Virus record (IMG/VR): IMGVR_UViG_3300002835_000041
Coordinates: 1 to 64,000 of that record
Strand: one strand, 5' to 3'
DNA: 64,000 bases
Source: a virus
How positions within the stretch are numbered: position 1 is the first letter of the stretch; the number at the start of each line of letters is the position of its first letter. Shown here one piece after another: positions 4,780 through 63,939 of the stretch. The notes under the pieces were generated by a model. The model was not told the DNA's origin and did not search any database. It was given only the letters and a program-made list of their open reading frames with translations. The position numbers and the translations under genes are program-made.

Positions 4780-4788
4780 TGGTATACT
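4780..4788 (+). promoter_or_regulatory. Promoter giving a leaderless mRNA for the 4795 gene
   Basis: TGGTATACT lies exactly 6 nt before the ATG at 4795, so transcription should begin at or next to the start codon. There is no Shine-Dalgarno site. Confidence 0.65.
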
Positions 4789-4794
4789 TATACA

Positions 4795-5475
4795 ATGGCA
4801 ACAAAAATATATGACACAAAAAAAATATCATTAGTGGATGATAGGGTCATTATTGCTGCACCTTTAAAAATAAAATATTTAAGACAATTTTTAGAAACCT
4901 TTGAAACTATTAAGCAGGCAAAAACTGATGATGAGTCTATATCTGTGTTAGCCGAATGCGCTCTCATTGCAATGCAACAGTACTGCCCTTCAATCAAAAC
5001 AATAGAAGAGTTAGAGGACAGTTTGGATCTACCAACCATTTATGAAGTTATAGATATTGCAGCGGGAATTAAAATTAATGAGAAGTCAGAAGATACTGTT
5101 AAAAACCAGGCAGTAGATAGCGGATCAACCTGGGATACATTAGATTTGGCAAAACTAGAATCAGAGGTTTTTTTATTGGGGATCTGGAAAGACTATGATG
5201 AGTTAGAGTCGTCCATATCTATGCAAGAGTTAACTGCAACCTTAAAAATAAAAAGAGAGTTAGACTATAGTGATAAAAAGTTTTCTGCTGCAATGCAAGG
5301 AGTAGATTTAGACAAAAACTCTGGCAGTGGAAATGAATGGGAAGAGATGAAGGCCAGAGTCTTTAGCAAAGGGGCAACTGAAAATGCAAATGACATTCTT
5401 GCTTTGCAGGGCGTAAATGCTGAAAAGGCTGGTTTTGGAATAGGGCAAGGCCTTGATTACGAAGTTTATGAATAG
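4795..5475 (+). CDS. Tail assembly chaperone, long form
   Basis: 226 residues. An in-frame ATG at 4765 lies inside the terminator and is rejected; the leaderless start MATKIYDTKK is used. Residues 1-100 match the 5531 protein along their length: both have PLKI, LR.F...FE.I, a Cys followed by IAM.QY.P, and LDLPT.Y....I. .GIK. Residues 105-226 are an extra acidic domain that the short protein lacks. In lambda-like phages the tail chaperones are G and a frameshifted G-T fusion made from one locus; here long and short versions are separate genes. The protein would hold tape measure and tube subunits during tail assembly. Assignment is from position and paralogy. Confidence 0.65.
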   Translation: MATKIYDTKKISLVDDRVIIAAPLKIKYLRQFLETFETIKQAKTDDESISVLAECALIAMQQYCPSIKTIEELEDSLDLPTIYEVIDIAAGIKINEKSEDTVKNQAVDSGSTWDTLDLAKLESEVFLLGIWKDYDELESSISMQELTATLKIKRELDYSDKKFSAAMQGVDLDKNSGSGNEWEEMKARVFSKGATENANDILALQGVNAEKAGFGIGQGLDYEVYE

Positions 5476-5495
5476 TAAAAAATAAGCCTGCGCTA

Positions 5496-5504
5496 TGGTA
5501 TAAT
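5496..5504 (+). promoter_or_regulatory. Extended -10 promoter for the short chaperone
   Basis: TGGTATAAT is followed by a leader of about 20 nt. The leader holds the palindrome CCTTATAAGG, which overlaps the start of the AAGGAGG ribosome site and could partly fold it. Confidence 0.65.
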
Positions 5505-5530
5505 TGACTAAACCTTATAAGGAGGAATAA

Positions 5531-5857
5531 ATGGCAACTGCCACAACAGAAGAAAAGACAGTAACACTGATCGACGGTACAAAGATCAAAGTAAGACCAC
5601 TTAAAATCTCATTGCTTCGTCCATTTATGAAGAAGTTTGAGGATATTGCAAAGGTCGCAGAAGATAACGAAAAGTCTATGGATTTGCTAATGGACTGTGT
5701 TCAAATCGCAATGAAGCAATACAAGCCAGAATTGGCAGAAGACAAGGAAGCCCTAGAAGAAAACCTAGACCTTCCAACAGTATACAAGATTGTCGAAGAG
5801 GCATCAGGAATTAAACTTTCTGACGCATCACTACTTGGCAGCCTTGCAAATAACTAA
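5531..5857 (+). CDS. Tail assembly chaperone, short form
   Basis: 108 residues, a paralogue of the first half of the 4795 protein (shared blocks around residues 20-100, ending LDLPTVYKIVEEASGIK). It matches the G-like chaperone and lacks the T-like extension. Unlike the long form it has a leader, an AAGGAGG site and AAG-rich codons, so it should be made in larger amounts. That would recreate the excess of short over long chaperone that other phages obtain by ribosomal frameshifting. It lies directly before the tape-measure gene, the standard place. Confidence 0.7.
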   Translation: MATATTEEKTVTLIDGTKIKVRPLKISLLRPFMKKFEDIAKVAEDNEKSMDLLMDCVQIAMKQYKPELAEDKEALEENLDLPTVYKIVEEASGIKLSDASLLGSLANN

Positions 5858-5875
5858 ATAAAGAGGTGTTAATGG

Positions 5876-21950: not shown

Positions 21951-22381
21951 TGGCAGACTCAGGAATAAAAAATATTGTTGTAAAGAAAGAATTACTAGGG
22001 AAAATAACAACAGAGAATGGAAGAATTGCAAGATTTAGGTTAGTGTCAGAAGACAAAAACAGAAAATCTGCATGGTCTCAAATATTTTCAGTAAATTCTG
22101 AATTAATCCAAGTTCTCCCAGGAGATATAAATGTTGTTGGCAATACAGTGCTTGTTAACTGGTCAAAAGGATCTAGAACTTCTACCCAAGAGATGTATGA
22201 TGTTTTTGCTTCATTTGATGGTGGTGCCTATCTAAATGTTGGTGTTGCAGTTGGCACAAGTTATTCATTTTTAAAAACTGGAACTACGTCTGTAAAGGTT
22301 TTGGTCCAGTTGGCATCTATAAACCCAACAGTAAAGACCTCTCTTAAGGTTTATGAATCTCCAGTCAAGTCTCTGGTATAA
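21950..22381 (+). CDS. Minor tail protein, fibronectin-like
   Basis: 143 residues; starts at a GTG that overlaps the preceding TAG. The pattern of short strands (RIARFRLVSEDKNRKSAWS, QEMYDVFASFDGGAY, SYSFLKTGTTSVKVLVQLA) suggests a fibronectin-III/Ig-like beta sandwich, common in tail-tip proteins where it may bind carbohydrate. It is the last gene of this overlapping run. Confidence 0.5.
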   Translation: MADSGIKNIVVKKELLGKITTENGRIARFRLVSEDKNRKSAWSQIFSVNSELIQVLPGDINVVGNTVLVNWSKGSRTSTQEMYDVFASFDGGAYLNVGVAVGTSYSFLKTGTTSVKVLVQLASINPTVKTSLKVYESPVKSLV

Positions 22382-22382
22382 T
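22374..22382 (+). promoter_or_regulatory. Promoter giving a leaderless mRNA for the 22389 gene
   Basis: TGGTATAAT ends 6 nt before the ATG at 22389 and overlaps the stop region of the previous gene. Confidence 0.65.
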
Positions 22383-22388
22383 TAGAGT

Positions 22389-22832
22389 ATGTCAAAATTG
22401 CCTACGCCCGAAAGAGGGCAACCTCTAGATGTTACACTTATGTATCAGATTATTCAAACTATTAATGATTTGTCTGCTCAAGTAACTCCATCAATTAATA
22501 AATATGTTACAGTAGATACCAAGGACTCTGGAAAGCAAAGCGCAAAGATTTCAGAAGCCCGTATAATCGGTGGCTATGTTCAAGTAACGCAGGGCACAAC
22601 AAAGACTGCAGGAACTTCTGAGCCATTTTCTTATCCATTTGGAACAGACTTTAAATTTGCACCAGTAGTCACAGTAACCCCTATAAATGTCGGAGGTACA
22701 GATGCTGGTAAGGATGTCACGGTAACAATCAGTAGCATCTCAACTTCACGAGTAGAAGGAATAGTTAAATTTAATACTGGTGGAGATACAACTATTGGTA
22801 TCAACTTAATCATAGTTGGAATACCTAACTAA
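22389..22832 (+). CDS. Tail-associated protein, putative
   Basis: 147 residues. A helical start (LDVTLMYQIIQTINDLSAQV) is followed by a beta-rich domain ending in GINLIIVGIPN, which looks like the short trimeric tail or fibre proteins found after phage tip genes. It has its own leaderless promoter although it lies at the end of the tail operon. Function unproven. Confidence 0.5.
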   Translation: MSKLPTPERGQPLDVTLMYQIIQTINDLSAQVTPSINKYVTVDTKDSGKQSAKISEARIIGGYVQVTQGTTKTAGTSEPFSYPFGTDFKFAPVVTVTPINVGGTDAGKDVTVTISSISTSRVEGIVKFNTGGDTTIGINLIIVGIPN

Positions 22833-25276: not shown

Positions 25277-25288
25277 TTATAATATGGT

Positions 25289-25645
25289 ATGTCAAAAAAG
25301 AATGATATACCGTATGAATCATACCATCATAAGCCTATCAAAAGGTTTTACCTTGATGGAATAATTCACGATGATTCTATGATCGGAAGGCTCAAAGAAG
25401 AGTATATACGATTATTGACTTCAGAAATGAAACTAAGTGGGTATGTTCCAAGAATTGATCTTGACCCAGACTTCACAATAGGGTATAATGATATAAAGAA
25501 CTTTTTTGAATTTGAATTATCAATACAGGCAGTCTACGCAGGGAAAAGGAAAAGCGAATGGATAGCAGGAATAGACGGAACCAAACCCATCTTTATTCCG
25601 CAGAGCAAGTCAAGCGAGTCCTTACAGGATCGGGTATTACCGTAG
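25289..25645 (+). CDS. Protein between helicase and primase genes, unknown
   Basis: 118 residues; overlaps the primase gene by 88 nt in another frame. Contains MIGRLKEEYIRLLTSEMKLS and YVPRIDLDPDFTIGYN; no recognised motif. TATAAT lies 5 nt before its ATG, so it may be transcribed nearly leaderless. The long overlap with primase suggests coordinated expression. Confidence 0.5.
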   Translation: MSKKNDIPYESYHHKPIKRFYLDGIIHDDSMIGRLKEEYIRLLTSEMKLSGYVPRIDLDPDFTIGYNDIKNFFEFELSIQAVYAGKRKSEWIAGIDGTKPIFIPQSKSSESLQDRVLP

Positions 25646-31628: not shown

Positions 31629-31899
31629 GTCCAAAAGAATAGGTGCCAAACAGCACAAGAACTCTGGTCGTAATACCCAAAAAGGTGATGCTTCCTGGAA
31701 AAATTTTGTTGTAGATTTTAAAGAGGTAGGCAAATCATTTACGCTAAATAAAGAAGTCTGGGCTAAGGCTACAACTGATGCTATGAAAAATGGCAAAGAT
31801 CCAGCAATCGTTGTTGTGATGGGAGAGGCTAATTCTAAGGTCAGACTTGCTATAATTGAGATGAGTATTTTAGAACAACTTTTAGAGGATGGTGTATAA
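31612..31899 (+). CDS. Holliday-junction-resolvase-like PD-(D/E)XK nuclease
   Basis: 95 residues from a TTG codon preceded by AAAGAAGAG; an upstream TTG at 31588 is less well placed. IGAKQHKNSGRNTQKGDASW followed by FVVDFKE fits a compact PD-(D/E)XK core in which the acidic residue of the E-x-K is Asp, and the next block ends in AIVVVMGE. It sits after recA, with RuvC-like and Cas4-like genes close by, which supports recombination. The family call is by eye. Confidence 0.5.
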   Translation: MTEKSESKRIGAKQHKNSGRNTQKGDASWKNFVVDFKEVGKSFTLNKEVWAKATTDAMKNGKDPAIVVVMGEANSKVRLAIIEMSILEQLLEDGV

Positions 31900-31900
31900 T
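31895..31900 (+). promoter_or_regulatory. Promoter giving a leaderless mRNA for the 31907 gene
   Basis: GTG-TATAAT with 6 nt to the ATG at 31907. It overlaps the end of the upstream nuclease gene. Confidence 0.6.
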
Positions 31901-31906
31901 AGTATT

Positions 31907-32584
31907 ATGAATACAGGATATGAGCCAAAAAATAAGATAGTTCCACATATCGTACGAGATTTCTTTACTGAAGAAGAGGTAGAAGTTCTCCTTGCAATAA
32001 TTAACTACCAAAAAAAGGCTAAGGATTTGGATGCATTTTATGCTCCTCTAGTTCTTCCTGACATGGCAAGAATGCAAATTGAAGTAATGTACCCAGAACA
32101 TATACGCAGAAAACTTGAAAAGTTTGCTTCAGATATGGTTGGAGAAGAAGTCTTTATGTACCACAATAGTTATTTAAGTTATAACAAAGAACACAATTCC
32201 GATGCAAATCCAAAGTTGCCAGTTCACTATGATTCAGATAATTACTTTACTAAACTTACAATGGACTACCAACTTGGCGCTAATATTGATTGGCCAATAG
32301 TAATTGAGAATGAAAGTTTTAATCTTCAATATGGAGATCTTCTTATTTTCTGGGGTGCAGGACAAGCCCATTGGAGAGAGCCAGTATTATTTAAAGAAGG
32401 AGATAACACAGAAGTTTTGACTATGCATTTTTCAACATTTAAAGATTTTCATGAGTTAAACCTTCCTGCTAGGGCACCAGAAGAAAGAAAGAAAAGACTT
32501 CAAAAATGGAATCAAGATCCAGTATTTGCAAAATATAAAGAAGATTTTAACAAAAAAGAAGAATCTCTAATAGAATCAAAATAA
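31907..32584 (+). CDS. 2-oxoglutarate/Fe(II) oxygenase-like protein
   Basis: 225 residues. The H-x-D iron triad start is seen in VHYDSD (about residue 104), with a distal His in AHWREP (about 160), and a jelly-roll strand pattern between. Enzymes of this fold hydroxylate proteins, small molecules or bases using 2-oxoglutarate; the substrate here is unknown. It diverges clearly from the four-member paralogue set elsewhere in the window. The leaderless start at 31907 is chosen over 31889. Confidence 0.55.
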   Translation: MNTGYEPKNKIVPHIVRDFFTEEEVEVLLAIINYQKKAKDLDAFYAPLVLPDMARMQIEVMYPEHIRRKLEKFASDMVGEEVFMYHNSYLSYNKEHNSDANPKLPVHYDSDNYFTKLTMDYQLGANIDWPIVIENESFNLQYGDLLIFWGAGQAHWREPVLFKEGDNTEVLTMHFSTFKDFHELNLPARAPEERKKRLQKWNQDPVFAKYKEDFNKKEESLIESK

Positions 32585-42204: not shown

Positions 42205-42729
42205 ATGACTTGTATTGCTGTAGTAAAACATGAGGATAAAATCTACATGGCTGGAGATCGTGGCGCATCAGATGATGGAACTATTCTAGCCCTTGACGCT
42301 CCAAAAGTTTGGAAGATAGGTCCCTATCTTATTGGATATGCTGGATCAATGGACGGAGAAAGAATCCGATTTAACTTTAAACCAACACATCCAAACATTA
42401 AAGATACAGACAAGTTTATGCAAACCAGATTTATCAAAGAACTAAAAGAATTCTATAATGAGTTCTGGGTTGACACATCAAAAGATGGAGATCTTGGTCT
42501 AATCATTGCAGTTCGTGGAAATATTTACGAGCATAGTTCTGCAGATATGTCTTTATCTAAGTATACACTACCTTATCTGGCTATGGGTTCTGGAGCAGAG
42601 TACGCCTATGGGGTTTTATATGCAACAGATAAACAAAAAAATGCTAGAAATAGAGTTATGCAAGCAGTAAATGCTGCCATAAAATTTAACCCATCTTGCA
42701 TGGGTCCAGTTGACATCATTAGTCTTTAA
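42205..42729 (+). CDS. HslV/proteasome-beta-like Ntn hydrolase
   Basis: 174 residues. The opening M-TCIAVVKHEDKIYMAGDRG is the Ntn-hydrolase pattern in which the residue after Met (Thr2) becomes the catalytic nucleophile. KVWKIGPYLIGYAGS and LAMGSGAEYAYGVLYA match conserved strands of HslV/20S beta subunits. It may form a peptidase ring or act on a phage or host protein. No HslU-like ATPase was seen. Expression is controlled by the hairpin/promoter just upstream. Confidence 0.65.
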   Translation: MTCIAVVKHEDKIYMAGDRGASDDGTILALDAPKVWKIGPYLIGYAGSMDGERIRFNFKPTHPNIKDTDKFMQTRFIKELKEFYNEFWVDTSKDGDLGLIIAVRGNIYEHSSADMSLSKYTLPYLAMGSGAEYAYGVLYATDKQKNARNRVMQAVNAAIKFNPSCMGPVDIISL

Positions 42730-42732
42730 GGG

Positions 42733-42738
42733 TATACT
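42733..42738 (+). promoter_or_regulatory. Promoter giving a leaderless mRNA for the 42745 gene
   Basis: GGG-TATACT with 6 nt to the ATG at 42745. Confidence 0.6.
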
Positions 42739-42744
42739 TATTAT

Positions 42745-42948
42745 ATGAATCATTCACACGATGACCTATCGCCTGAAGAGCAAGAGTTTGGTATCTGGCT
42801 TGAAAACGGTATAGAAAGAGGCTGGGTTACACCTCCTTATTGCAATACTCACGACGGCGGATACGAATATATGGATGAAGAAGAAATTGAAGAATGGGAC
42901 GCAGGTGGCGACCCATGTTGTCATGTCATCAGATTGATGATATCGTAA
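42745..42948 (+). CDS. Small acidic Cys/His protein of actinobacterial type
   Basis: 67 residues with YCNTHDGGYEYMDEEEIEEW and a final GGDPCCHVIRLM. This CNTHDG...GGDPC pattern resembles short proteins common in actinobacteria and their phages; the Cys and His residues could bind a metal. Function unknown. Confidence 0.6.
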   Translation: MNHSHDDLSPEEQEFGIWLENGIERGWVTPPYCNTHDGGYEYMDEEEIEEWDAGGDPCCHVIRLMIS

Positions 42949-48984: not shown

Positions 48985-48993
48985 TGGTATAAT
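48985..48993 (+). promoter_or_regulatory. Extended -10 promoter for the endolysin
   Basis: TGGTATAAT at the end of the carbamoyltransferase gene, then a leader of about 20 nt containing AAAGGAGG before the ATG at 49020. Confidence 0.7.
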
Positions 48994-49019
48994 AGATATG
49001 TCCTTAAAGGAGGAATAAA

Positions 49020-49634
49020 ATGGCAGCAAAAGGTAGTCTAGAAGCAATCATTGAGATTGCAAAAAAGGAAGTGGGCACAATTGAAGGCCCTAAAGATAAT
49101 GAAACAAAATATGGCAAGTGGACTGGGATGAATTTTCAGCCATGGTGCCAGTCATTTGTTTCTTGGTGTGCATTTACATCGGGATTAGATCCAAAGAAGT
49201 ATCCAAAGTCTGCATCAACAGTAGCAGCGTCAGATTGGTTCAAGAAGAATGGGCGTTGGTCAGATGCTCGTAATGATGATCCACAAGCAGGAGACTGGAT
49301 TTATTTTGATTTTCCAGAAGATGGTGTAAATCGTATTTCACATGTTGGAATCTGTATCAAGAACAACGGAGATGGAACAATCCAAGTTATTGAGGGAAAC
49401 ACTTCAGGAACTGCAAAGGGAGATCAGCGCAATGGCGGAATGTGCGTAGAGAAGACTCGTGGTTATGTAAAAAACAACAAGAAGAAGTTGCTTAATGGAG
49501 TTGTCGGTTGGGGTCGTCCAGTTTATACTGGTGAAGAAAATGCTCCGCTTCTCAATAAGGTGGTAGCACCAGTTGTAGCAAAGCCTGCAGTAAAGCCAGT
49601 AGTTAAGAAACCAGTAGCAAAGAAGGCTAAGTAA
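49020..49634 (+). CDS. Endolysin with CHAP-type amidase/peptidase domain
   Basis: 204 residues. PWCQSFVSWC contains the catalytic Cys (Cys43), and RISHVGICI the His (His108), followed by VIEGNT; this is the CHAP/NlpC-P60-like cysteine hydrolase layout that cuts peptidoglycan. The last 35 residues are an Ala/Pro/Val/Lys tail with Lys pairs that may bind the wall. Strong AAAGGAGG site and AAG/CGT codons fit late, high expression. No signal peptide, so a holin is needed for export. Confidence 0.85.
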   Translation: MAAKGSLEAIIEIAKKEVGTIEGPKDNETKYGKWTGMNFQPWCQSFVSWCAFTSGLDPKKYPKSASTVAASDWFKKNGRWSDARNDDPQAGDWIYFDFPEDGVNRISHVGICIKNNGDGTIQVIEGNTSGTAKGDQRNGGMCVEKTRGYVKNNKKKLLNGVVGWGRPVYTGEENAPLLNKVVAPVVAKPAVKPVVKKPVAKKAK

Positions 49635-53167: not shown

Positions 53168-53449
53168 TTGAATAAATTTAAATGGAAAGACAACGCTGTT
53201 TGTTTAGATTATGACACAAATTTATTCTTTGACAAATATGAAGATGATGAAATACTAAGGCCAGCAATAGATGCTTTATGCTTTTCCTGCCCAGTAAGAA
53301 AAGAATGTTTTTCTGTTGGAATTTCAGGTAAAGAGTGGGGTGTTTGGGGCGGGGTATACTTAGAAAATGGAGAGATATCAAAAGAATTCTCTAGCCACAA
53401 GAGTAAAAATGACTGGGGAATGACATGGCAATCATTAACAATGGAGTAA
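53168..53449 (+). CDS. WhiB-family iron-sulfur transcription regulator
   Basis: 93 residues from a TTG codon. Four cysteines (12, 38, 41, 47; CFSCPVRKEC) ligate the [4Fe-4S] cluster and GVWGG (58-62) is the sigma-factor contact turn. WhiB proteins exist only in actinobacteria and their phages, where they bind SigA region 4 and alter promoter choice. The basic tail is short and weak here. Probably redirects host RNA polymerase, perhaps toward the TG-extended phage promoters; that is inference. Confidence 0.9.
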   Translation: MNKFKWKDNAVCLDYDTNLFFDKYEDDEILRPAIDALCFSCPVRKECFSVGISGKEWGVWGGVYLENGEISKEFSSHKSKNDWGMTWQSLTME

Positions 53450-53690: not shown

Positions 53691-54094
53691 TCCAGCCGAT
53701 ATTGTTAGTTATTTTATCAGTCACATCTACGGTATTAGGTTTTCTTTTTTACATTCAAAGAAAAAAGACTATACAGATAGTTGCCAATATGCTAGATTTT
53801 ATGATGATCCAGGAAGCACAAAAACAAGAAACAAAAACAGAGCAAGAACAGTCTAATGAAGACTTTTTAAAATTTATTTCAGATTCTCGTGACTGGGCAT
53901 ACACCTATATAGACGAAGTGCAAGCATCTTTAAATAAGTTTATTAGTGATATTGAGCCAGAGATTAGTTATTTTAAAGAGTATGGGGATGTCGGATCTAT
54001 GGCTCCCAACTACTACTCTATGAAAAAAATCACTGGAGCATATGAAGAACTAAAGAAACTGCTACCAGAAGACTATGGTAAAATAGATACATGA
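53687..54094 (+). CDS. Membrane-anchored helical protein, unknown
   Basis: 135 residues: N-terminal membrane helix (about 4-22), then long helices rich in Glu/Gln and an acidic C-terminus. Topology resembles small anchored proteins and inner-membrane spanins, but the outer partner is not expected in actinobacteria. The 3' end carries the -10 of the next gene. Confidence 0.5.
   Translation: MIQPILLVILSVTSTVLGFLFYIQRKKTIQIVANMLDFMMIQEAQKQETKTEQEQSNEDFLKFISDSRDWAYTYIDEVQASLNKFISDIEPEISYFKEYGDVGSMAPNYYSMKKITGAYEELKKLLPEDYGKIDT
54076..54084 (+). promoter_or_regulatory. Promoter giving a leaderless mRNA for the 54091 gene
   Basis: TGGTAAAAT with 6 nt to the ATG at 54091; one mismatch from TATAAT, inside the upstream coding region. 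Confidence 0.45.
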
Positions 54095-54693
54095 TTAATG
54101 ATCCATCAAACAAAGATGAAGTCTATTTAAAAAATGTTGAAAAAATAGGAAGTTCTTCAGAAAACATTCGATATATAGAAAATATCTTGTCTGAAGAAGA
54201 GCACACAGTTTTACTTGAGTATGTAAAGGCCCGTAAAGAATGGGTTCACGAGCCATGGGATGCCGAGACTGTTGGTCCAGACCAGATGCCACAAGACATT
54301 TTAAATATGTTAGAAAAAATATTTGTATTTGTTCAAAATACTGCCACAGATTTTTATGATGTAAAGATTAATGATTTTAAAAGGGACAACCTTGTTTTAA
54401 TTAAGTTTCCACGGGGTCTTGTTTTATATCCACATATAGATACAGATTCAGTAGAATCAAATCACATTGCATCGATATACTATATTAATGACGACTATGT
54501 TGGCGGAGAGATAAACTTTCCAGATTACAATGTAAAGATTCATCCAAAGCCTAACAGTGTTGTTTTCTTTCCTGGCAATGAAAATTACTTACATGAAGTC
54601 CTTACGATTCGAAGTGGAGACCGATATAGCACATCTATGTGGTTTCAGTTTACTGGTTCTACTTTTAACAAAAATGCAGAATGGTATAAATAA
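54091..54693 (+). CDS. 2OG/Fe(II) oxygenase, tandem paralogue A
   Basis: 200 residues. N-terminal KIGSSSENIRYIENILSEEE is shared in form with three other proteins in the window. The P4H-like core has PHIDTD (H-x-D), YYINDDYVGGEINFPDYNV, FFPGNENYLHEV (distal His) and RYSTSMWF (2OG-binding Arg). It hydroxylates an unknown target and lies 2 nt before its paralogue. Confidence 0.8.
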   Translation: MINDPSNKDEVYLKNVEKIGSSSENIRYIENILSEEEHTVLLEYVKARKEWVHEPWDAETVGPDQMPQDILNMLEKIFVFVQNTATDFYDVKINDFKRDNLVLIKFPRGLVLYPHIDTDSVESNHIASIYYINDDYVGGEINFPDYNVKIHPKPNSVVFFPGNENYLHEVLTIRSGDRYSTSMWFQFTGSTFNKNAEWYK

Positions 54694-54695
54694 AA

Positions 54696-55247
54696 ATGAC
54701 AATATCTGAATTAGGAAATTCTGTAGACAATATACAAATTACAGAAAATGTTTTATCTATAGAAGAGCATAGACAACTTCTTTATTATACAACCAATCTT
54801 GATTCTTGGGTTACTCAGCCTTGGGGTGTTAAATTTTTTAAAGATGGACTGCCAGAACAAATCATCAGTATATTAGAAAAAGTTTTTAGGATTGCCGATA
54901 AAAAATGCAGAGAAACCTACAATGTAAGTCTTAATGTTTTTGAAAGAAAAGAAGTACACCTGATTAAGTTTGAAAAAGGCTACAAGATGAATGAGCATGC
55001 AGATACTACGGGGGATTTTGCAGCAATATACTATATTAACGATGACTATGAAGGAGGAGAAATAAACTTTACAGATCATAATCTTAAGATTAAGCCAAAG
55101 TCTAATAGTCTTATTACATTTCCCAGCAATGAAAACTACTGGCACGAAGTTCTTGAAAATACTGTAAAAGAAAGATACTCCTCTACTCTATGGTTTACAA
55201 TTGAAGGATCTAGCCGTGTAAGACCCGAAAGTGGACTGGTCAGATGA
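54696..55247 (+). CDS. 2OG/Fe(II) oxygenase, tandem paralogue B
   Basis: 183 residues, aligned over its length with the 54091 protein: ELGNSVDNIQITENVLSIEE, EHADTT (H-x-D), YYINDDYEGGEINFTDHNLK, FPSNENYWHEV and RYSSTLWF. All metal and 2-oxoglutarate residues are kept in both, so both may be active on related targets. TATAAA lies 5 nt before the ATG. A local gene duplication is likely. Confidence 0.8.
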   Translation: MTISELGNSVDNIQITENVLSIEEHRQLLYYTTNLDSWVTQPWGVKFFKDGLPEQIISILEKVFRIADKKCRETYNVSLNVFERKEVHLIKFEKGYKMNEHADTTGDFAAIYYINDDYEGGEINFTDHNLKIKPKSNSLITFPSNENYWHEVLENTVKERYSSTLWFTIEGSSRVRPESGLVR

Positions 55248-56559: not shown

Positions 56560-56565
56560 TATAAT
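56560..56565 (+). promoter_or_regulatory. Promoter giving a leaderless mRNA for the HNH gene
   Basis: CGG-TATAAT with 7 nt to the ATG at 56573. Confidence 0.55.
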
Positions 56566-56572
56566 ATAAGCA

Positions 56573-56845
56573 ATGACTGACAAAGAGTTAGACCATTATA
56601 ACAAGCAAGAGTTTAAGAGGATGCTTGCCAAAATAAAGGAAGATTCTGGCTGTGTAGACTGTGGTGTTGGTAACCATATAATTCTAGACTTTGATCATAT
56701 AAGAGACAAGAAATATAATATATCTAGAATGATCCATGATGGTTTTTCATGGAAGGCTATCAAGAAAGAGATTGAAAAGTGTGAGGTGGTTTGTGCTAAC
56801 TGCCACAGGATCAGGACACACAACAGGCTTAACGGTATGATATAA
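56573..56845 (+). CDS. HNH endonuclease
   Basis: 90 residues. CVDCG and CEVVCANCHRIRTHNR supply the zinc cysteines and the final His/Asn; ILDFDHIRDKKYNIS contains the catalytic D-H. It cuts DNA as a free-standing nuclease, possibly a homing enzyme or packaging helper. Compact length is usual. Its end carries the -10 of the next microgene. Confidence 0.85.
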   Translation: MTDKELDHYNKQEFKRMLAKIKEDSGCVDCGVGNHIILDFDHIRDKKYNISRMIHDGFSWKAIKKEIEKCEVVCANCHRIRTHNRLNGMI

Positions 56846-56846
56846 T
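56838..56846 (+). promoter_or_regulatory. Promoter giving a leaderless mRNA for the 56853 gene
   Basis: TGATATAAT with 6 nt to the ATG at 56853; overlaps the stop of the HNH gene. Confidence 0.6.
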
Positions 56847-56852
56847 TATATA

Positions 56853-56981
56853 ATGCCAAAGAAAAAAGCAACAGCGTTTAATCCTATTCAGATTAAAGAT
56901 GGATGGATTGTTAGACTATACAAAGATGGTCGTATTAAATCTAAGATTGAACCCTACGAACCAAAGCATCCTAAAAAATAA
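56853..56981 (+). CDS. Microprotein, basic
   Basis: 42 residues (MPKKKATAFNPIQIKDGWIV, then a strand pair RLYKDGRIKSKIEPY). Probably a tiny beta hairpin protein. Supported by the exact leaderless promoter; function unknown. It converges on the minus-strand gene with 2 nt between. Confidence 0.6.
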   Translation: MPKKKATAFNPIQIKDGWIVRLYKDGRIKSKIEPYEPKHPKK

Positions 56982-56983
56982 AT

Positions 56984-57379
56984 TTATTTTGTAAGTTTGT
57001 ATGAATAACGGAAACCAATTTTTCCTATATACTTTGACAATCCAGGATAGTATCCATCGAAAAACATTATGTATCTTGGGTGAGTAGAGCATATAAAAGC
57101 AAGTTTTTCAGCATTATTTTTATCTATAGTAAAAAACCAATCATAAAAATGTTTTATTAAAGCATCAAAACCATTTTCTGCAAGTTTACTTTCTACTGGA
57201 ACATTGTATTTAACTAACTCACCAAGCATTATTGTTAGATCAGTTGCTTCTTTAGCCATTACAGACCAATCATCTTTAGAATATGTAGATAGTCTTTCTT
57301 TGCATGCCACAACATTCTGACTGTCTGGCTCTCCCACCATCAATTCTTTCCATAGATCCTTGCATGTTATTGTTTCCAT
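56984..57379 (-). CDS. Helical protein with weak TipAS-like pattern
   Basis: 131 residues from the leaderless ATG 57379; the longer frame to 57439 would run into tRNA-Arg and is rejected. All-helical, with YDWFFTIDKNNAEKLAFICS followed by MFFDGYYPGLSKYI, vaguely like the ligand-binding TipAS helical domain of actinobacterial regulators. That likeness is weak and no DNA-binding part is present. Confidence 0.45.
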   Translation of the reverse strand: METITCKDLWKELMVGEPDSQNVVACKERLSTYSKDDWSVMAKEATDLTIMLGELVKYNVPVESKLAENGFDALIKHFYDWFFTIDKNNAEKLAFICSTHPRYIMFFDGYYPGLSKYIGKIGFRYSYKLTK

Positions 57380-57385
57380 GCAGTA

Positions 57386-57391
57386 ATTATA
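57386..57391 (-). promoter_or_regulatory. Promoter giving a leaderless mRNA for the 57379 gene
   Basis: On the minus strand GTG-TATAAT with 6 nt to the ATG, placed between tRNA-Arg and the gene. Confidence 0.6.
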
Positions 57392-57407
57392 CACCACAAA
57401 TGATTTG

Positions 57408-57480: not shown

Positions 57481-57484
57481 ATTG

Positions 57485-57557: not shown

Positions 57558-57561
57558 AGAG

Positions 57562-57635: not shown

Positions 57636-57641
57636 TAGACC

Positions 57642-57785: not shown

Positions 57786-57796
57786 TTATATATCTC

Positions 57797-57964: not shown

Positions 57965-57968
57965 TAGA

Positions 57969-58097
57969 TCACTGGCTTTCTGCTACTTTGTCACAAGGAC
58001 AAATTATGGACTCTGGGAGTTCGTGAACCTTGGTTACAATAGTAATCATGGTTTCACACTCAACACACTTATATACTTTCTTAATTCGTTTGCTCAT
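57969..58097 (-). CDS. Zinc-ribbon microprotein
   Basis: 42 residues with CVEC near residue 11 and CPC near 33, a small cysteine-rich ribbon. The minus-strand ATG at 58097 stands 6 nt after a TATGAT hexamer, supporting a leaderless start. Function unknown. Confidence 0.55.
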   Translation of the reverse strand: MSKRIKKVYKCVECETMITIVTKVHELPESIICPCDKVAESQ

Positions 58098-58103
58098 AAA
58101 CTA

Positions 58104-58112
58104 ATCATACCA
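58104..58112 (-). promoter_or_regulatory. Promoter giving a leaderless mRNA for the 58097 gene
   Basis: Minus strand TGGTATGAT with 6 nt to the ATG. Confidence 0.5.
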
Positions 58113-58128
58113 TACTGAGGTATGTGTG

Positions 58129-58596
58129 TCAAGATTTGTTTCCATCCCAAGTCCCAATCTTTGTGGTAGGGATTCCGTGCTCTTCCCAAAGCCTAATAAC
58201 ATTTGGATTGTCATCTACGGCATGAAGAATATTCCAATGTTTCTTAATCTGAGTTAAGATATCTTTTTTTACTTCATAGTCTGGCCTATTGTCATCATCT
58301 TTACGCATGTACAGTGCGTGATGGCCGATGTCGTTTTTAGCAAGCCAGCGAGAGGTTAGTCCACGCCAATTTTCTTTTCTTGATGTGACAATTATAATGT
58401 GTCTTTGATCAAAGAATGCCTCATTAAGCATTTGAACTACTTCAAAGTTTGGCAGGGCATCGATAGAAGCCTCATGAAAGGCATCGTAATCCCTATTAGG
58501 ACCACGAACAAGGTGAAGGTATGGATCTACATTGGCTAAGGTGCCATCTACATCAAAGATGACTCCTGGGGTTACAGGACTAGTTCTGATCAACAT
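58129..58596 (-). CDS. HAD-family phosphatase, Pnk 3'-phosphatase-like
   Basis: 155 residues. VIFDVDGTLANVD holds the nucleophile and acid Asp pair, IIIVTSRKENWRGLTSRWL the motif II Ser/Thr and adjacent Arg/Trp, and HAVDDNPNVIRLWEEHG the motif IV Asp pair. The arrangement follows the phosphatase half of T4 polynucleotide kinase. No kinase half is present. It may trim 3' phosphates in RNA or DNA repair. Confidence 0.82.
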   Translation of the reverse strand: MLIRTSPVTPGVIFDVDGTLANVDPYLHLVRGPNRDYDAFHEASIDALPNFEVVQMLNEAFFDQRHIIIVTSRKENWRGLTSRWLAKNDIGHHALYMRKDDDNRPDYEVKKDILTQIKKHWNILHAVDDNPNVIRLWEEHGIPTTKIGTWDGNKS

Positions 58597-58669: not shown

Positions 58670-58839
58670 TCAAAGTCCACCTGTGTTTCAAAAATTTTAG
58701 TCATATAGTTATCCTCTCCTCTTGCAATTTTTGCAGCAGCAATACGCATACCTAAAGCATTTGTAACTGAAGAGTCAATTGGCAACGATTCTATTTCCCT
58801 TGCTATCTCTTCTCGTAATGTCATTTCATCTATACTCAT
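58666..58839 (-). CDS. Small helical protein
   Basis: 57 residues (MSIDEMTLREEIAREIESLP, then a helix NALGMRIAAAKIARGEDNY). Leaderless promoter 6 nt upstream on the minus strand. Function unknown; shares a divergent promoter region with 58896. Confidence 0.6.
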   Translation of the reverse strand: MSIDEMTLREEIAREIESLPIDSSVTNALGMRIAAAKIARGEDNYMTKIFETQVDFE

Positions 58840-58845
58840 ACTTCA

Positions 58846-58889
58846 ATTATACCCTACTTGGCAGGGTATGTCAAAACAAGTGATATAAT
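58846..58889. promoter_or_regulatory. Divergent leaderless promoter pair
   Basis: Minus-strand TATAAT at 58846-58851 and plus-strand TGATATAAT at 58881-58889 face away from each other, each exactly 6 nt from its ATG (58839 and 58896). The inverted repeat TACCCT/AGGGTA (58850-58868) lies between and could bind a regulator of both. Confidence 0.6.
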
Positions 58890-58895
58890 AATCTT

Positions 58896-59141
58896 ATGAC
58901 AACACCACCAAACTATCAAGGACTATATAACAATGGAGCACTTTATGCCATTGGAGACACAGTTATTACTGATGGAGATCCATACGGTATTGACGGAGCG
59001 TACTTCATTCGAATTAGCAACCCTGGTAATCCAGGATATCCACCTGCAGTGGGTGGAGGAAGTAACGATAACTGGGCACCGTATGGTGTCAAGTCAGTAA
59101 CTGGATCTGGATCTGTGACAGGATCAGGCGCAATAGCCTAA
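58896..59141 (+). CDS. Small carbohydrate-binding-module-like protein
   Basis: 81 residues. YNNGALYAIGDTVITDGDPY and a later WAPYG recall the CBM5/12 chitin-binding fold (W/Y-x-G-x-x-Y-x-x-G-D-x-V), then a Gly/Ser/Thr tail. No signal peptide. Could be a virion surface decoration or attach to other proteins; it is the only plus-strand gene in this arm and converges on the 59138 gene with 4 nt overlap. Confidence 0.5.
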   Translation: MTTPPNYQGLYNNGALYAIGDTVITDGDPYGIDGAYFIRISNPGNPGYPPAVGGGSNDNWAPYGVKSVTGSGSVTGSGAIA

Positions 59142-59392: not shown

Positions 59393-59420
59393 ATTGCCTA
59401 TCCATCGTAATGGCAGTATC

Positions 59421-59549
59421 TTAGTTCTTTGTGTCTTCGTTGAATGATTTATCATCTTTAGGTACCCAGACTTTCTTTCCATCTTTCCATACAGGCCAAT
59501 AGCCAAGACTACGCCAGTCCATGGTCATTATCTTAGGATCTTTTGGCAT
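59421..59549 (-). CDS. Microprotein, Trp-rich
   Basis: 42 residues (MPKDPKIMTMDWRSLGYWPV, WKDGKKVWVPKDDKS). Overlaps the end of the 59533 gene. Short repeated W-x-P/W-K pattern; function unknown. Confidence 0.4.
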   Translation of the reverse strand: MPKDPKIMTMDWRSLGYWPVWKDGKKVWVPKDDKSFNEDTKN

Positions 59550-59649
59550 TGACACACCAAATCTTTCCATCACTCATTGTTTGATGGGCATTCCAGAACC
59601 AATCGGATTCTTTGCTTAGGCTACATACTTCACATTGATCAACATTCAT
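59533..59649 (-). CDS. Cys-containing microprotein
   Basis: 38 residues with CEVC and a later WCVN, a possible metal site. Minus-strand TGATATAAT ends 6 nt before the ATG at 59649, the leaderless pattern. Its start overlaps the stop of the SGNH hydrolase gene. Confidence 0.5.
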   Translation of the reverse strand: MNVDQCEVCSLSKESDWFWNAHQTMSDGKIWCVNAKRS

Positions 59650-60671
59650 ATCTTAATTATATCAGTCGGTGTTCTATGTGTCAAATTATAAAATAGATCT
59701 GCAACATGATGTTGAAAATGAATTCCTGGATGAGCATAGCCAGTTGTCTTTTTGCTATCAATGATTGAGTAATCAGATCCAACTGACCAACAGAAATTAT
59801 CCTTAAACTCAGAGTTGTGATCTGACTTACAAATATCTTGCACAAAAGTATTGCAAGGCTTAATTGATTTGGCAGGAAAGAATGATGTGAAGTTTTTTAA
59901 TTTAAAATCTTTAATATTTAAAAGTTCTTCCATAAGCAAGTTAGTATTTATGTCCCAGGTTGTCCAATATAGTTTTATGCCACTTGTCAAGCAGAATGAT
60001 TCTAGTATGTAAATAGAGTTTATAGAATTTAAAATTAGTTGGTGTGGGGAAGTTGCGTCTTCTACATATTTTTTATCTTTTACTTCCATCAATAAAGAAC
60101 TTTTATACTCATCAATTTTTGGATTGCAGTAGGTCAATTCTAAATGATCCCAATCAGGAAAGTTTTTATCATTTTTTGATTTGTAAAATTCCTTATCAAT
60201 AACAACTACACTTCTAAAAAAGTCTGGAAACAAACAAAAGATTTCTTTTGGCATTTTGTTATTTAGGGAATACTGAATAATATTATTACAAATACTTTCT
60301 ACAGATGCTCCAGGACTGCCCAAATTAACAATGCTTTTATTAATCCTATTACCTAAAAAGTTTGTCCATCTAGCAGGTTCTGGAACTCCAACTCCAAAAG
60401 TTATAGAGCAACCAGATGCAATAACATCTGAATTGTCATCAATTTCTCCACGACAACCAAAACGATTAATCTCGTATGTATTGTGCTCATCAACTGTTCC
60501 AACAAAAGGATCTTTTTGGTTCCACTCTTTAAAGAAAGTATCTTTAGCATATGGTTTAAAGTAGCCAAACTCGCTGGTGTTGGTGAAGTTTTTTATTAGA
60601 TAGTCTTTTTCTTTATCACTTTTTTGATCAAACTTATAAAAACTTAAAATGTCTCTTGTCAGAAAAGTCAT
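59646..60671 (-). CDS. SGNH/GDSL-like hydrolase
   Basis: 341 residues. SDVIASGCSITFGVGVPEPA contains the block I nucleophile (Ser89), NLGSPGASVESICNN block II Gly/Ser, and GYAHPGIHFQHHVAD the C-terminal His. Esterases of this type remove acyl groups from sugars or lipids. An Asp-x-x-His is not perfectly clear. In this phage it might edit an acylated or sulfated surface polymer. GAGAAGA precedes the ATG; overlaps the 60668 gene. Confidence 0.65.
   Translation of the reverse strand: MTFLTRDILSFYKFDQKSDKEKDYLIKNFTNTSEFGYFKPYAKDTFFKEWNQKDPFVGTVDEHNTYEINRFGCRGEIDDNSDVIASGCSITFGVGVPEPARWTNFLGNRINKSIVNLGSPGASVESICNNIIQYSLNNKMPKEIFCLFPDFFRSVVVIDKEFYKSKNDKNFPDWDHLELTYCNPKIDEYKSSLLMEVKDKKYVEDATSPHQLILNSINSIYILESFCLTSGIKLYWTTWDINTNLLMEELLNIKDFKLKNFTSFFPAKSIKPCNTFVQDICKSDHNSEFKDNFCWSVGSDYSIIDSKKTTGYAHPGIHFQHHVADLFYNLTHRTPTDIIKI
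59656..59664 (-). promoter_or_regulatory. Promoter giving a leaderless mRNA for the 59649 gene
   Basis: Minus-strand TGATATAAT with 6 nt to the ATG; lies inside the end of the SGNH hydrolase gene. Confidence 0.55.
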
Positions 60672-60898
60672 TCTTCTCTTCTCCAGTGTATGTATGACTT
60701 TATATATACAAGTCCATACGCTACTGCACTAACAATAAATCCATACTGCTTAGTTACTAGACCATAAACAGTCCATAATGTTTCATTAAATAATAAAACA
60801 AACCAGCCCCAAATTGTTTTTCTTCCAACAAAATAAATTCCAGACACGCCGATAATAGCAAGCACCCAGTGGGCATAGTCGTTAATCCATTGTTCCAT
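60668..60898 (-). CDS. PnuC-like small membrane protein
   Basis: 76 residues with three hydrophobic stretches. The block GWFVLLFNETLWTVYGLVTK, ending YGLVYIKSYIHWR, resembles the last helices of PnuC nicotinamide-riboside transporters, but only about a third of a full transporter is present. May be a minimal paralogue or a different small channel. Leaderless start. Confidence 0.55.
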   Translation of the reverse strand: MEQWINDYAHWVLAIIGVSGIYFVGRKTIWGWFVLLFNETLWTVYGLVTKQYGFIVSAVAYGLVYIKSYIHWRREE

Positions 60899-60904
60899 AT
60901 ATAC

Positions 60905-60910
60905 AGTATA
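60905..60910 (-). promoter_or_regulatory. Promoter giving a leaderless mRNA for the 60898 gene
   Basis: Minus-strand GGG-TATACT with 6 nt to the ATG at 60898. Confidence 0.6.
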
Positions 60911-60937
60911 CCCTAAAGTAATAGTTTAGTCAAATCT

Positions 60938-61480
60938 TTATATTATTATCTTTTTTTCTAAAAGTTTGTTGTAATAATAATAGCACAAACCAATATTTAG
61001 ATCATCTGACAAATCTTTATTGTAGTCTGGCAAATCTTTGCTTGACTCAACAAAAAAGGGATCTGGCTGTCCGTAATCTCCATCAAAAAGATGATGCTCA
61101 TCTTCCTTAATATCTAATAGTTCTATTAACTTTTTAATTGTAGTGTCTGGGTATTTAACAAGATCATTAAAGTCTATAACATAGTCTGCATGCTCATATA
61201 AAAAACTATAAAGAAGTATGTATTCTGATACAATTTGATTAACTCTTTGCCATGTAACCTCATAAACACCACGATGTTCCGCTGCAATATATGAGGCAAT
61301 GCTGTCTCTAGGATCTCTTGCTATGGTAATTATTACCCTTTGCTTATTGTGATCCTTATCAAATGCCCAATTAATTGTATGAGTTTTTTCAATACGGAAT
61401 CCTGACTCTTTTTCAAAAAGTCTATCAAAATAGTGGGATCCGCTTCTTGGGTATGTGCTTAAATGCGGTTTGTATTTCAC
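60938..61480 (-). CDS. Sulfotransferase family protein
   Basis: 180 residues from GTG 61480, which overlaps the stop of the 61602 microgene; earlier in-frame ATG 61513 lies inside that gene. STYPRSGSHYFDRLF is the 5'-phosphosulfate loop and VIITIARDPRDSIASYIAAE the 3'-phosphate site of PAPS sulfotransferases. Shorter than most (about 250-300). Different subfamily from 38648, so a different acceptor is likely. Confidence 0.75.
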   Translation of the reverse strand: MKYKPHLSTYPRSGSHYFDRLFEKESGFRIEKTHTINWAFDKDHNKQRVIITIARDPRDSIASYIAAEHRGVYEVTWQRVNQIVSEYILLYSFLYEHADYVIDFNDLVKYPDTTIKKLIELLDIKEDEHHLFDGDYGQPDPFFVESSKDLPDYNKDLSDDLNIGLCYYYYNKLLEKKIII

Positions 61481-61602
61481 GACACTAAGCCCATAGATAG
61501 GTGACCAAGGCACACATCAGCAACAATATAGTCGGAATGATTAACGACAATATCAAAATGCGTTGCGTCTTTATCACAAAAAAAACATTTAGACTTCTTC
61601 AT
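61477..61602 (-). CDS. Zinc-binding microprotein
   Basis: 41 residues with CFFC near residue 6 and CLGH near 31, a CCCH metal set. Leaderless ATG at 61602. Its stop overlaps the sulfotransferase start, so the two are coupled. Function unknown. Confidence 0.6.
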   Translation of the reverse strand: MKKSKCFFCDKDATHFDIVVNHSDYIVADVCLGHLSMGLVS

Positions 61603-61608
61603 ATAATA

Positions 61609-61617
61609 ATTATACCA
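61609..61617 (-). promoter_or_regulatory. Promoter giving a leaderless mRNA for the 61602 gene
   Basis: Minus-strand TGGTATAAT with 6 nt to the ATG; overlaps the end of the oxygenase fusion gene region. Confidence 0.6.
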
Positions 61618-63045
61618 TTAAACAAAATCAAACCACAGTGGCATAATATATCTTGATCCATTTGCAGGAGCAACATGATACCAGTAGTGAATATTTCCAG
61701 GGAATAGAACTAAATCGCCAGCCTTGGGCTTAAATGATACACCTTGATGAATAAAAGACAACTCTCCACCATCGTAATCGTCATTAAGATATACCCATCC
61801 TGCTAAATGGTTTGAATCTTTATGTCCTAAGTCGTCTATTGGAATTACTGGACTATTATTATGCACCCATTCAGCAAAACGAGAGTTTCTTGGCTTTAGT
61901 TTAACACCATACTCTTCTTCCACCAAAGATTTTATTTGAGGTATATATCTTTCTGAATAGTCTAGTGAGTCGTAATAAAGTAAAGACAAGGTAGGCTTTC
62001 CAGCGCTATCAGGCTGTAGAGGACGATTATTGCTTGTCTCTGTACCCTTGATTAGTTCTATAATGTTGTTGCACTCTTCTTTACTTAGATAGTTACTAAA
62101 GATTTTTACATTATTAGGATTGTTTCCAATCTTAGTAAAGTTTTCTATAGTAAGTTCAGATATTACCACCTTCTTTTGTTCTGGGATAACTATGTTATTA
62201 AAATCTTTTACTAATTCTAGCAACTTGCTAATGTCTTCTTGATCGGTATGTATCATAAAATCATATATTCCAAATTGTTCAGACAACTGTCTTATTTGTC
62301 TAACAACATCAACCATAGGTCCTTTAACATGGTGATGCTGCTTTCTTACTGGTGCATTTTTATCGTATCTAACATTTTGCTCTTCGTCGGGATGATTTAT
62401 AATTAGAGGATCGATAATAACTATTGGCTTTACTCTACTAAGATCAATCTTTTTAAATTGATCTCTAAATAGTAAGTTATCATCTACATAAATATACTCA
62501 CAATGCTTGTTTGCTATTTCAATAGTAGTGTCTGAAGAACCAACAACAGCCATATGTGTCTTATGTTGGTGCGTTTTCATCAAATCCATAACCTTATCCA
62601 TCCAGACTGCAGAGATAGCAACTCTTTTTTCAAGAGTATCTATTAGTGATGGATCGTGCATATAGTGTTCTAGAACTATTCTTTCTGCAGGACCATTTCC
62701 TTCATCTCCCCATCTTCCAGCAACAAGGTTTACACCAATTCTTCCAGGAGCAAATCGGTTTAATGTTTCACAAATTTTAGCAGCATAGTCAGGGCTTGTT
62801 CCGTATGCTGGCAAAGCAATTGTCATAATTAGTTGGTTTGTTTTTTGTAGCGCTTCTTGTATAACTAAGGAAAAGTCTATGCCTCCTGGACCGTAAGGAA
62901 GCAAAACAGATTTTACATTAGCATCATCTAGTTCTGTGGCCATCTTAAGGATTCCATTAAGATCTAGGTTTTCAATACTGTCATTTATCTGCCAGTGCCT
63001 TCTCCACATCCAGTGAAATGTTATGGGCTTATTTATATTATCCAT
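61618..63045 (-). CDS. Fusion of luciferase-like flavin monooxygenase and 2OG/Fe(II) oxygenase
   Basis: 475 residues. Residues 1-290 look like a luciferase-like (LLM) TIM barrel: KMATELDDANVKSVLLPYGP, TIALPAYGTSPDYAAKICET, and GRIGVNLVAGRWGDEG, the flavin-binding region. Residues 297-475 are a 2OG/Fe(II) oxygenase: KIGNNPNNVKIFSNYLSKEE, GHKDSNH (H-x-D), YLNDDYDGGELSF, FPGNIHYWYHV (distal His) and SRYIMPLWF. Two different oxygen-activating enzymes in one chain suggest successive oxidation of one substrate. Overlaps the 63038 gene by 8 nt. Confidence 0.75.
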   Translation of the reverse strand: MDNINKPITFHWMWRRHWQINDSIENLDLNGILKMATELDDANVKSVLLPYGPGGIDFSLVIQEALQKTNQLIMTIALPAYGTSPDYAAKICETLNRFAPGRIGVNLVAGRWGDEGNGPAERIVLEHYMHDPSLIDTLEKRVAISAVWMDKVMDLMKTHQHKTHMAVVGSSDTTIEIANKHCEYIYVDDNLLFRDQFKKIDLSRVKPIVIIDPLIINHPDEEQNVRYDKNAPVRKQHHHVKGPMVDVVRQIRQLSEQFGIYDFMIHTDQEDISKLLELVKDFNNIVIPEQKKVVISELTIENFTKIGNNPNNVKIFSNYLSKEECNNIIELIKGTETSNNRPLQPDSAGKPTLSLLYYDSLDYSERYIPQIKSLVEEEYGVKLKPRNSRFAEWVHNNSPVIPIDDLGHKDSNHLAGWVYLNDDYDGGELSFIHQGVSFKPKAGDLVLFPGNIHYWYHVAPANGSRYIMPLWFDFV

Positions 63046-63301
63046 TTTTTATTACTCTTCCTTTTGTTTTAAACCAAGACCCTATCTTGGCCTTTGCTAC
63101 TTTGCTTCTTAAAAGTTCTCCAAATGTTTCATGTGATATATCTGATCCAAGATACTCCTGACCAGTTTCAAGGTCTATCAGTTTCCATTTGCCAGGTGCT
63201 TTTGTGTGCAAGATCAAATCGATTGGATGATCGTAATCATTTACCTCAGAGCCATCTAAAAGTTTTCTTTTCTTTTGATTTGGTTCTGAGTTATTTGTCA
63301 T
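63038..63301 (-). CDS. Small protein, unknown
   Basis: 87 residues, basic ends, with WKLIDLETGQEYLGSDISHE and KAKIGSWFKTKGRVIKNG. Looks like a beta-rich phage protein without a named family. Leaderless ATG at 63301; coupled by overlap to the oxygenase fusion, so it may be its partner. Confidence 0.55.
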   Translation of the reverse strand: MTNNSEPNQKKRKLLDGSEVNDYDHPIDLILHTKAPGKWKLIDLETGQEYLGSDISHETFGELLRSKVAKAKIGSWFKTKGRVIKNG

Positions 63302-63307
63302 TATTCA

Positions 63308-63313
63308 ATTATA
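63308..63313 (-). promoter_or_regulatory. Promoter giving a leaderless mRNA for the 63301 gene
   Basis: Minus-strand GTG-TATAAT with 6 nt to the ATG; immediately beyond the end of the 63316 gene. Confidence 0.6.
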
Positions 63314-63315
63314 CA

Positions 63316-63927
63316 CTATGGGATTGTAAACCAAATTGGCACGGTATATCTTACACCAGACAGGACTTCTTTTACTTCATGGGCATAGTACATATTTCCA
63401 GGGAACATAATGAGGTCACCAATCTTAGGCTTAATAGTAACATCGTGTGTTGCAAAACTTAGTTCCCCACCCTCATAGTCATCATTAAGATATATAAGTG
63501 TAGGTAGGTGGTTGTCCGTTACCCATCCGAGATCGTCAACATGTAGGGCTAGTTTGGTACCCTTGTCCCATCTTGCAATGTTAAGATAGTCAAGATCTTT
63601 CTTCTTTATATTTTCATGGTTATATGCTTTTTTAACTTCATCTAAAACTCTACCGAATATGTTATATTTATCTATAACGCCCTGATAGTTGTGAATCCAT
63701 GCAACAGGATTATCTTTGTCGTCTTTTTGAGAAACAAAACTAATTCTTCTAGTTTCTTGAATATGGCTAAGAAGATAGTCAATCTCTTCAGAAGAAAGAA
63801 AATTTGGTATAACTTTTATGTTGTCTGCAGAATTGCCGATTTTTTGAAAAAATTCAAGATACGCTGGGGTTCTTTCGATTTCTCCTGGGTGGTTTCCCAC
63901 TGCTTGATTGTTAACTATGTATGCCAT
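63316..63927 (-). CDS. 2OG/Fe(II) oxygenase, paralogue of the 54091 group
   Basis: 203 residues from the leaderless ATG 63927; the longer frame from 63942 includes the promoter and is rejected. KIGNSADNIKVIPNFLSSEE, ALHVDDLG (H-x-D), YLNDDYEGGELSFATHDVTI, FPGNMYYAHEV (distal His) and RYTVPIWF (2OG Arg) are all present. Closest in the window to the C-terminal half of the 61618 fusion. Target unknown. Confidence 0.82.
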   Translation of the reverse strand: MAYIVNNQAVGNHPGEIERTPAYLEFFQKIGNSADNIKVIPNFLSSEEIDYLLSHIQETRRISFVSQKDDKDNPVAWIHNYQGVIDKYNIFGRVLDEVKKAYNHENIKKKDLDYLNIARWDKGTKLALHVDDLGWVTDNHLPTLIYLNDDYEGGELSFATHDVTIKPKIGDLIMFPGNMYYAHEVKEVLSGVRYTVPIWFTIP

Positions 63928-63933
63928 ATAACC

Positions 63934-63939
63934 ATTATA
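63934..63939 (-). promoter_or_regulatory. Promoter giving a leaderless mRNA for the 63927 gene
   Basis: Minus-strand GTG-TATAAT with 6 nt to the ATG at 63927. The last 60 bases of the window beyond it hold nothing else I can name. Confidence 0.6.

Follow-up and report, generated by a model that had tools for sequence, protein, structure and literature searches.

The window analysed here is a stretch of 64,000 nucleotides, bases 1-64000 of the 118,981-bp IMG/VR virus record IMGVR_UViG_3300002835_000041. An earlier note on this DNA listed 18 places at which a hexamer resembling a bacterial -10 element directly precedes an ATG. All 18 pairs are present: 15 have exactly 6 nt between hexamer and start codon, one (56573) has 7 nt and two (25289 and 54696) have 5 nt (Table 1). 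The absence of Shine-Dalgarno sites described for these genes also holds throughout, as 0/18 have such a site at the usual distance. Four genes of the 2OG-Fe(II) oxygenase family are found within 10 kb of the window (54091-54693 and 54696-55247 on the plus strand, 61618-63045 and 63316-63927 on the minus strand), with a sulfotransferase-like gene (60938-61513) in their midst.

Table 1. Start-codon-proximal -10 elements, leadered contrast cases and host marker gene in the window. Sites are named by the first base of the ATG; orthologue counts come from relatives that are often closely related.
Site	Elements and gene	Coordinates	Strand	Conservation or remark
4795	TGG-TATACT, 6 nt, ATG; 226-aa gene before tail tape-measure region	4783..4797	+	-10 at 5-7 nt in 22/24 distinct orthologous upstream regions
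22389	TGG-TATAAT, 6 nt, ATG; 147-aa gene, tail region	22377..22391	+	-10 at 5-9 nt in almost every orthologue with aa identity of 39% or more
25289	TATAAT, 5 nt, ATG; 118-aa gene (phrog_17515)	25278..25291	+	kept in 39/40 orthologues; near end of previous gene, so conservation may be partly coding
31907	TATAAT, 6 nt, ATG; 225-aa gene, weak ferrochelatase-family match (phrog_2954)	31895..31909	+	kept in 5/6 closest diverged orthologues
42745	TTGACA, 17 bp, TATACT, 6 nt, ATG; 67-aa gene	42710..42747	+	perfect -35; no orthologue found among IMG/VR relatives
54091	TAAAAT, doubtful; 2OG-Fe(II) oxygenase gene (Pfam), start overlaps previous stop	54079..54093	+	motif absent from L222 orthologue, 59% aa identity
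54696	TATAAA, 5 nt, doubtful; abuts previous stop	54685..54698	+	motif absent from L222 orthologue, 71% aa identity
56573	TATAAT, 7 nt, ATG; 90-aa gene	56560..56575	+	kept in 3/3 orthologues
56853	TGA-TATAAT, 6 nt, ATG; 42-aa ORF	56841..56855	+	only in this genome; absent from orthologues 93-95% identical
57379	TATAAT, 6 nt, ATG; 131-aa gene directly after tRNA array	57377..57391	-	kept in L214 orthologue
58097	TTGACA, 17 bp, TATGAT, 6 nt, ATG; 42-aa gene	58095..58132	-	-10 and spacing in 4/4 orthologues; diverged ones also have TTGAC
58839	TTGACA, 17 bp, TATAAT, 6 nt, ATG; 57-aa gene, divergent from 58896	58837..58874	-	4/5 orthologues
58896	TGA-TATAAT, 6 nt, ATG; 81-aa gene, divergent from 58839	58884..58898	+	kept in L214
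59649	TTGACA, 17 bp, TATAAT, 6 nt, ATG; 38-aa ORF overlapping end of gene 59646-60671	59647..59684	-	-10 in 5/6 orthologues; TTGAC in three diverged
60898	TTGACT, 17 bp, TATACT, 6 nt, ATG; 76-aa gene	60896..60933	-	5/5 orthologues
61602	TGG-TATAAT, 6 nt, ATG; 41-aa ORF	61600..61614	-	8/8 orthologues
63301	TATAAT, 6 nt, ATG; 87-aa gene	63299..63313	-	6/9 orthologues
63927	TATAAT, 6 nt, ATG; 203-aa 2OG-Fe(II) oxygenase gene	63925..63939	-	10/12 orthologues
	Leadered twin: same -10 type, 18 nt, AGGAGG, ATG	928..954	+	contrast case
	Leadered twin: TGG-TATAAT, 26 nt, AGGAGG, ATG	5499..5533	+	contrast case
	Leadered twin: TGG-TATAAT, 26 nt, AGGAGG, ATG	48988..49022	+	contrast case
	WhiB-family gene, actinobacterial host marker	53183..53356	+	PF02467, 44.5 bits, above cut-off

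What kind of virus carries these sites? Its polymerase is ~55% identical to that of the Stanwilliamsviridae and its terminase up to 55%; the portal and capsid show 45% and 42% identity, the tail genes are homologous too, and gene-by-gene matches run largely in the order found in phage BillNye. The source is a freshwater actinophage related to the Stanwilliamsviridae; the kinship is drawn from homologous genes and gene order, hence the term "related" in place of a family assignment. The WhiB-family gene indicates that the host is an actinobacterium. No sigma-70 region 2 domain was found in the phage, which makes the host sigma factor its likely partner; in a search of the phage for a single-subunit RNA polymerase, the control itself matched nowhere. 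The sole polymerase match in the genome collection, at 86% identity, was a 3.7-kb contig (L092) of a Flavobacteriia MAG, which was rejected as host sequence and judged to be a phage fragment, probably mis-binned.

Both ends of the phage contig (1-3442 and 115247-118953) carry a capsid gene and the same four following genes. The two capsid copies are 96% identical, the copy at the start being truncated, whereas the four genes behind them share only 54-66% identity. Both capsid copies match one single locus in the relatives checked. The duplicated ends represent either a tandem duplication or a strain-chimeric end of the assembly.

How might genes that lack a Shine-Dalgarno site be translated? 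It is very probable, on the evidence set out below, that in about 30-36 genes the promoter lies at the start codon and gives rise to a leaderless mRNA, with initiation on the 5'-terminal AUG. Host RNA polymerase with the main sigma factor would probably recognise TGnTATAMT or TTGACA-N17-TATAMT, and the placement of this promoter would make the A of the start codon the first base transcribed. The mRNA would then have no 5' leader, and the host ribosome would start on the terminal AUG, as is normal in actinobacteria. The remaining genes would have the same promoter at least 18 nt upstream, mostly together with a Shine-Dalgarno site, or would be coupled to the previous gene. The claim of the earlier note that these mRNAs should begin at the start codon thus gains strong support from the spacing statistics, the make-up of the promoters, their conservation and the evidence of cultured relatives, all of them read from sequence.

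Orthologous upstream regions were drawn from IMG/VR scans for relatives; they are often closely related and do not represent independent events, and in them most candidates keep a -10 at a distance of 5-7 nt. Outside the window it is kept in 12/12 orthologues of 85670, 8/8 of 95401, 11/11 of 96075 and 18/20 of 111879. At two control distances, the motif is found in few or none of the orthologues for most genes, and Shine-Dalgarno sites are rare in the same regions. Across twelve large relatives, there are 234 N6 sites versus 78 N13 sites. In a pool of 25 genes (some candidate promoters extend into the upstream coding region), the -10 reaches an identity of 0.79 and the ATG ~1.0, compared with 0.60 in the 6-nt spacer, 0.56 between the -35 and -10 elements and 0.49 further upstream. 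Orthologues of 58839, 59649 and 60898 retain the -35 and -10 elements as well as the ATG, while their 17-nt and 6-nt spacers vary.

The distance between the -10 and the ATG bears on whether the leader is absent or simply very short. Among 283 sites with the motif in diverged orthologues, 156 have a distance of 6 nt, 38 of 7 nt, 34 of 5 nt and 27 of 9 nt, with few elsewhere. Promoters of this kind could be genuine and yet start transcription a few bases upstream or downstream of the expected position, leaving leaders of 1-5 nt. This explanation is favoured by the sites at 5 and 7 nt and, above all, by those at 9 nt; many of the 9-nt sites belong to the family of 22389, where they would give leaders reading ACT-ATG or ACC-ATG. 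However, the sharp mode at 6 nt is what is predicted if +1 falls on the A of ATG, and short leaders are therefore considered unlikely, though they are the most serious alternative to leaderless initiation. Within the 22389 family, a subclass (L064, L054, L089 and others) has exactly 9 nt from -10 to ATG, often with ACT or ACC before the ATG, which would mean a 3-nt leader if +1 is fixed. In another relative, L063, the orthologue of 22389 has changed to a leader with AAGGAGG.

Do the genes really begin at these codons? Since gene starts here are predicted, ordinary promoters might precede a true start codon further downstream that has its own Shine-Dalgarno site, in which case the nearby ATG would be incidental. 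Conservation of the ATG at ~100% argues against this, as does homology from residue 1 in most orthologues (372/595 matches). Moreover, an ORF of at least 50 codons begins at 17/26 TATAMT-N6-ATG sites as opposed to 886/4403 of all ATGs, so N6 ATGs are three times as likely as others to open a long ORF. A downstream start is accordingly very improbable as a general explanation.

The sequence around the hexamer resembles that of real sigma-70-type promoters. Among the 36 candidates on the whole contig, 75% have a G two bases before the hexamer and 69% have a G one base before it. An extended -10 (TGn before the hexamer) is present in 19/36 candidates versus 48/273 of all TATAMT sites, and an exact TTGACA within 15-19 bp in 5/36 versus 8/5000 random positions. 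These exact -35 boxes, all at 17 bp, are found at 58097, 58839, 59649 and 64649 in the minus-strand accessory block and at 42745. By contrast, most structural-gene candidates have TGG/TGA-TATAMT with no recognisable -35. There appear to be two promoter styles, TTGACA-N17-TATAMT and TGn-TATAMT, both of them leaderless. Shine-Dalgarno sites and close -10 elements are mutually exclusive. A/U-rich regions near starts can aid the translation of genes without Shine-Dalgarno sites, and the TATA element might be such an enhancer within a longer leader and not a promoter at all. This is less probable still than a downstream start, because TGn and TTGACA-N17 accompany the hexamer and genes with a Shine-Dalgarno site have this composite motif too, at a greater distance from the start.

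The spacing was also examined independently of annotation, over the whole contig and on both strands, against 50 first-order Markov shuffles. TATAAT-N6-ATG was observed 17 times versus 2.7 expected, TATAAT-N7-ATG 7 times versus 2.6, and TATACT-N6-ATG 9 times versus 1.5. Other spacings were near expectation, and there was no excess of GTG in place of ATG after TATAAT or TATACT; all candidate leaderless starts are ATG. The earlier note had proposed tabulating TANNNT hexamers against shuffled sequence. The loose TANNNT shows no excess (119 versus 116), whereas TATAAT and TATACT at 6 nt do, which restricts the signal to strong -10 hexamers. The 6-nt peak was absent from both T4 and SPO1, the former being A+T-rich. 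The loose motif lacks an excess, and 54091 and 54696 resemble the coincidences to be expected in an A+T-rich genome. However, the about sixfold excess of TATAAT/TATACT, its conservation in relatives and its absence from T4 leave chance with next to no probability, and as an account of the whole set it has already been refuted by the shuffles and by conservation. At 54091 and 54696, leaderless initiation is unsupported because the start overlaps or abuts the stop codon of the gene before and the nearest orthologues lack the motif; translational coupling to the previous gene is more likely there.

How much of the genome follows this route? In a rough set of 140 genes there are 36 leaderless candidates, 58 Shine-Dalgarno-like genes, 17 genes coupled to an upstream stop and 29 that are neither. 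Strong intergenic promoters are positioned at 5-7 nt from the start (~20) or at 18-78 nt (~21, mostly with a Shine-Dalgarno site), and none lies at 8-17 nt, a gap that two distinct initiation routes predict. Candidate starts were partly picked by motif, so the class counts and the 5-7 nt peak are partly circular, whereas the shuffle test is not. Motif matches within coding sequence (3679, 15860, 27718, 30450 and others) were left out. All but one of the candidates (35/36) lack a Shine-Dalgarno site, the exception being 68681, outside the window. The best reading is that leaderless transcription serves about 30-36 of roughly 140 genes (about 21-26%). It is thus not the main rule that the earlier note had taken it to be, given the larger number of genes with Shine-Dalgarno sites and those that are coupled. 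Nor is it mostly a feature of accessory genes: tail-region and head-region genes use it too, with candidate starts at 4795 beside the tape-measure gene, at 84931 (tail-fibre-like), at 96075 (baseplate-like) and at 111879, just before the portal.

The 6-nt peak is also found in cultured phages: Peebs, Karimac and BillNye, which infect Streptomyces, and Trina, which infects Rhodococcus. Like the contig, the first three (Stanwilliamsviridae) and Trina combine the peak with a homologous polymerase and/or terminase; they differ in having cultured soil hosts, 45-53% G+C and looser -10 hexamers. In BillNye, independently annotated starts fall on such sites at 13202, 21510, 35815, 55686, 72437 and 84630. 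BillNye 13202 and contig gene 111879 are orthologous, with the -10 at 6 and 7 nt before the ATG, respectively. Limpid, a cultured member of the family, has little or no 6-nt peak.

Other freshwater phage contigs (L222-L286), which share only the oxygenase domain, have a strong 6-nt peak, with 89 sites versus roughly 13 per spacing. Among the freshwater contigs, which are fragments, WhiB does not predict the peak: the N6/N13 ratio is ~2.2 in both WhiB-positive (74/34) and WhiB-negative contigs (100/45). With equal ratios in both groups, these contigs do not establish the peak as a host signature.

Leaderless genes are well known in the presumed host group. In Actinobacteria, they make up 19.2% of genes on average, with a range of 2.3-29.8%, when defined as genes that have a TA-like signal ~10 bp upstream of the start codon and lack a Shine-Dalgarno site (PMC3160421, Zheng et al. 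2011). The contig candidates fit this definition, having a Pribnow-like hexamer at a fixed distance and no Shine-Dalgarno site, and their frequency is similar to that of the actinobacterial TA-led genes. The latter are bacterial and, in mycobacteria, begin with ATG or GTG, whereas the phage genes use ATG only and their 5' ends are predicted. Mycobacteria translate leaderless mRNAs well, the sole requirement being a 5'-terminal ATG or GTG (PMC4633059, Shell et al. 2015).

Phage precedents exist as well. Leaderless mRNAs have been predicted at about three promoters of Cluster O mycobacteriophages (PMC4351075), and one gene of Adephagia, gene 90, has a predicted leaderless promoter (PMC11373665). 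The actinophage setting and a predicted +1 at the very beginning of the start codon are shared with the contig, and the Cluster O promoters are SigA-like. The contig has about 30 or more such genes compared with about three or one, and conservation was tested here across a large family. Leaderless mRNAs of lambda and P2 are named as such in PMC4633059; they too are phage mRNAs translated from a 5'-terminal AUG (predicted in the present case), but only a few genes are involved, and E. coli translates leaderless mRNAs less robustly. The finding is therefore less notable than originally proposed, as leaderless genes are common in actinobacteria (PMC3160421) and have been predicted in actinophages (PMC4351075). 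Leaderless actinophage mRNAs are already known as predictions, and the contig adds a new, well-supported case in which the predicted leaderless genes are many, conserved and of both accessory and virion type.

Programs that predict genes from Shine-Dalgarno sites or codon usage will probably overlook leaderless genes or place their starts wrongly; a codon-based caller missed or shifted several of the candidates. With the conserved 6-nt rule, start codons are fixed in a large freshwater phage family that is known mainly from metagenomes, and very small genes (38-57 codons) are indicated. It is conceivable, though improbable, that the split between leaderless and Shine-Dalgarno genes is a regulatory device that uses the two initiation routes of the host to time or protect classes of genes. 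If so, translation of the leaderless genes, among them most of the accessory block at 56-69 kb, would continue when ribosomes or initiation factors are altered by infection or stress. With the same peak in cultured relatives that infect Streptomyces and Rhodococcus, the predicted reliance on leaderless mRNA for about a quarter of the genes is directly testable.
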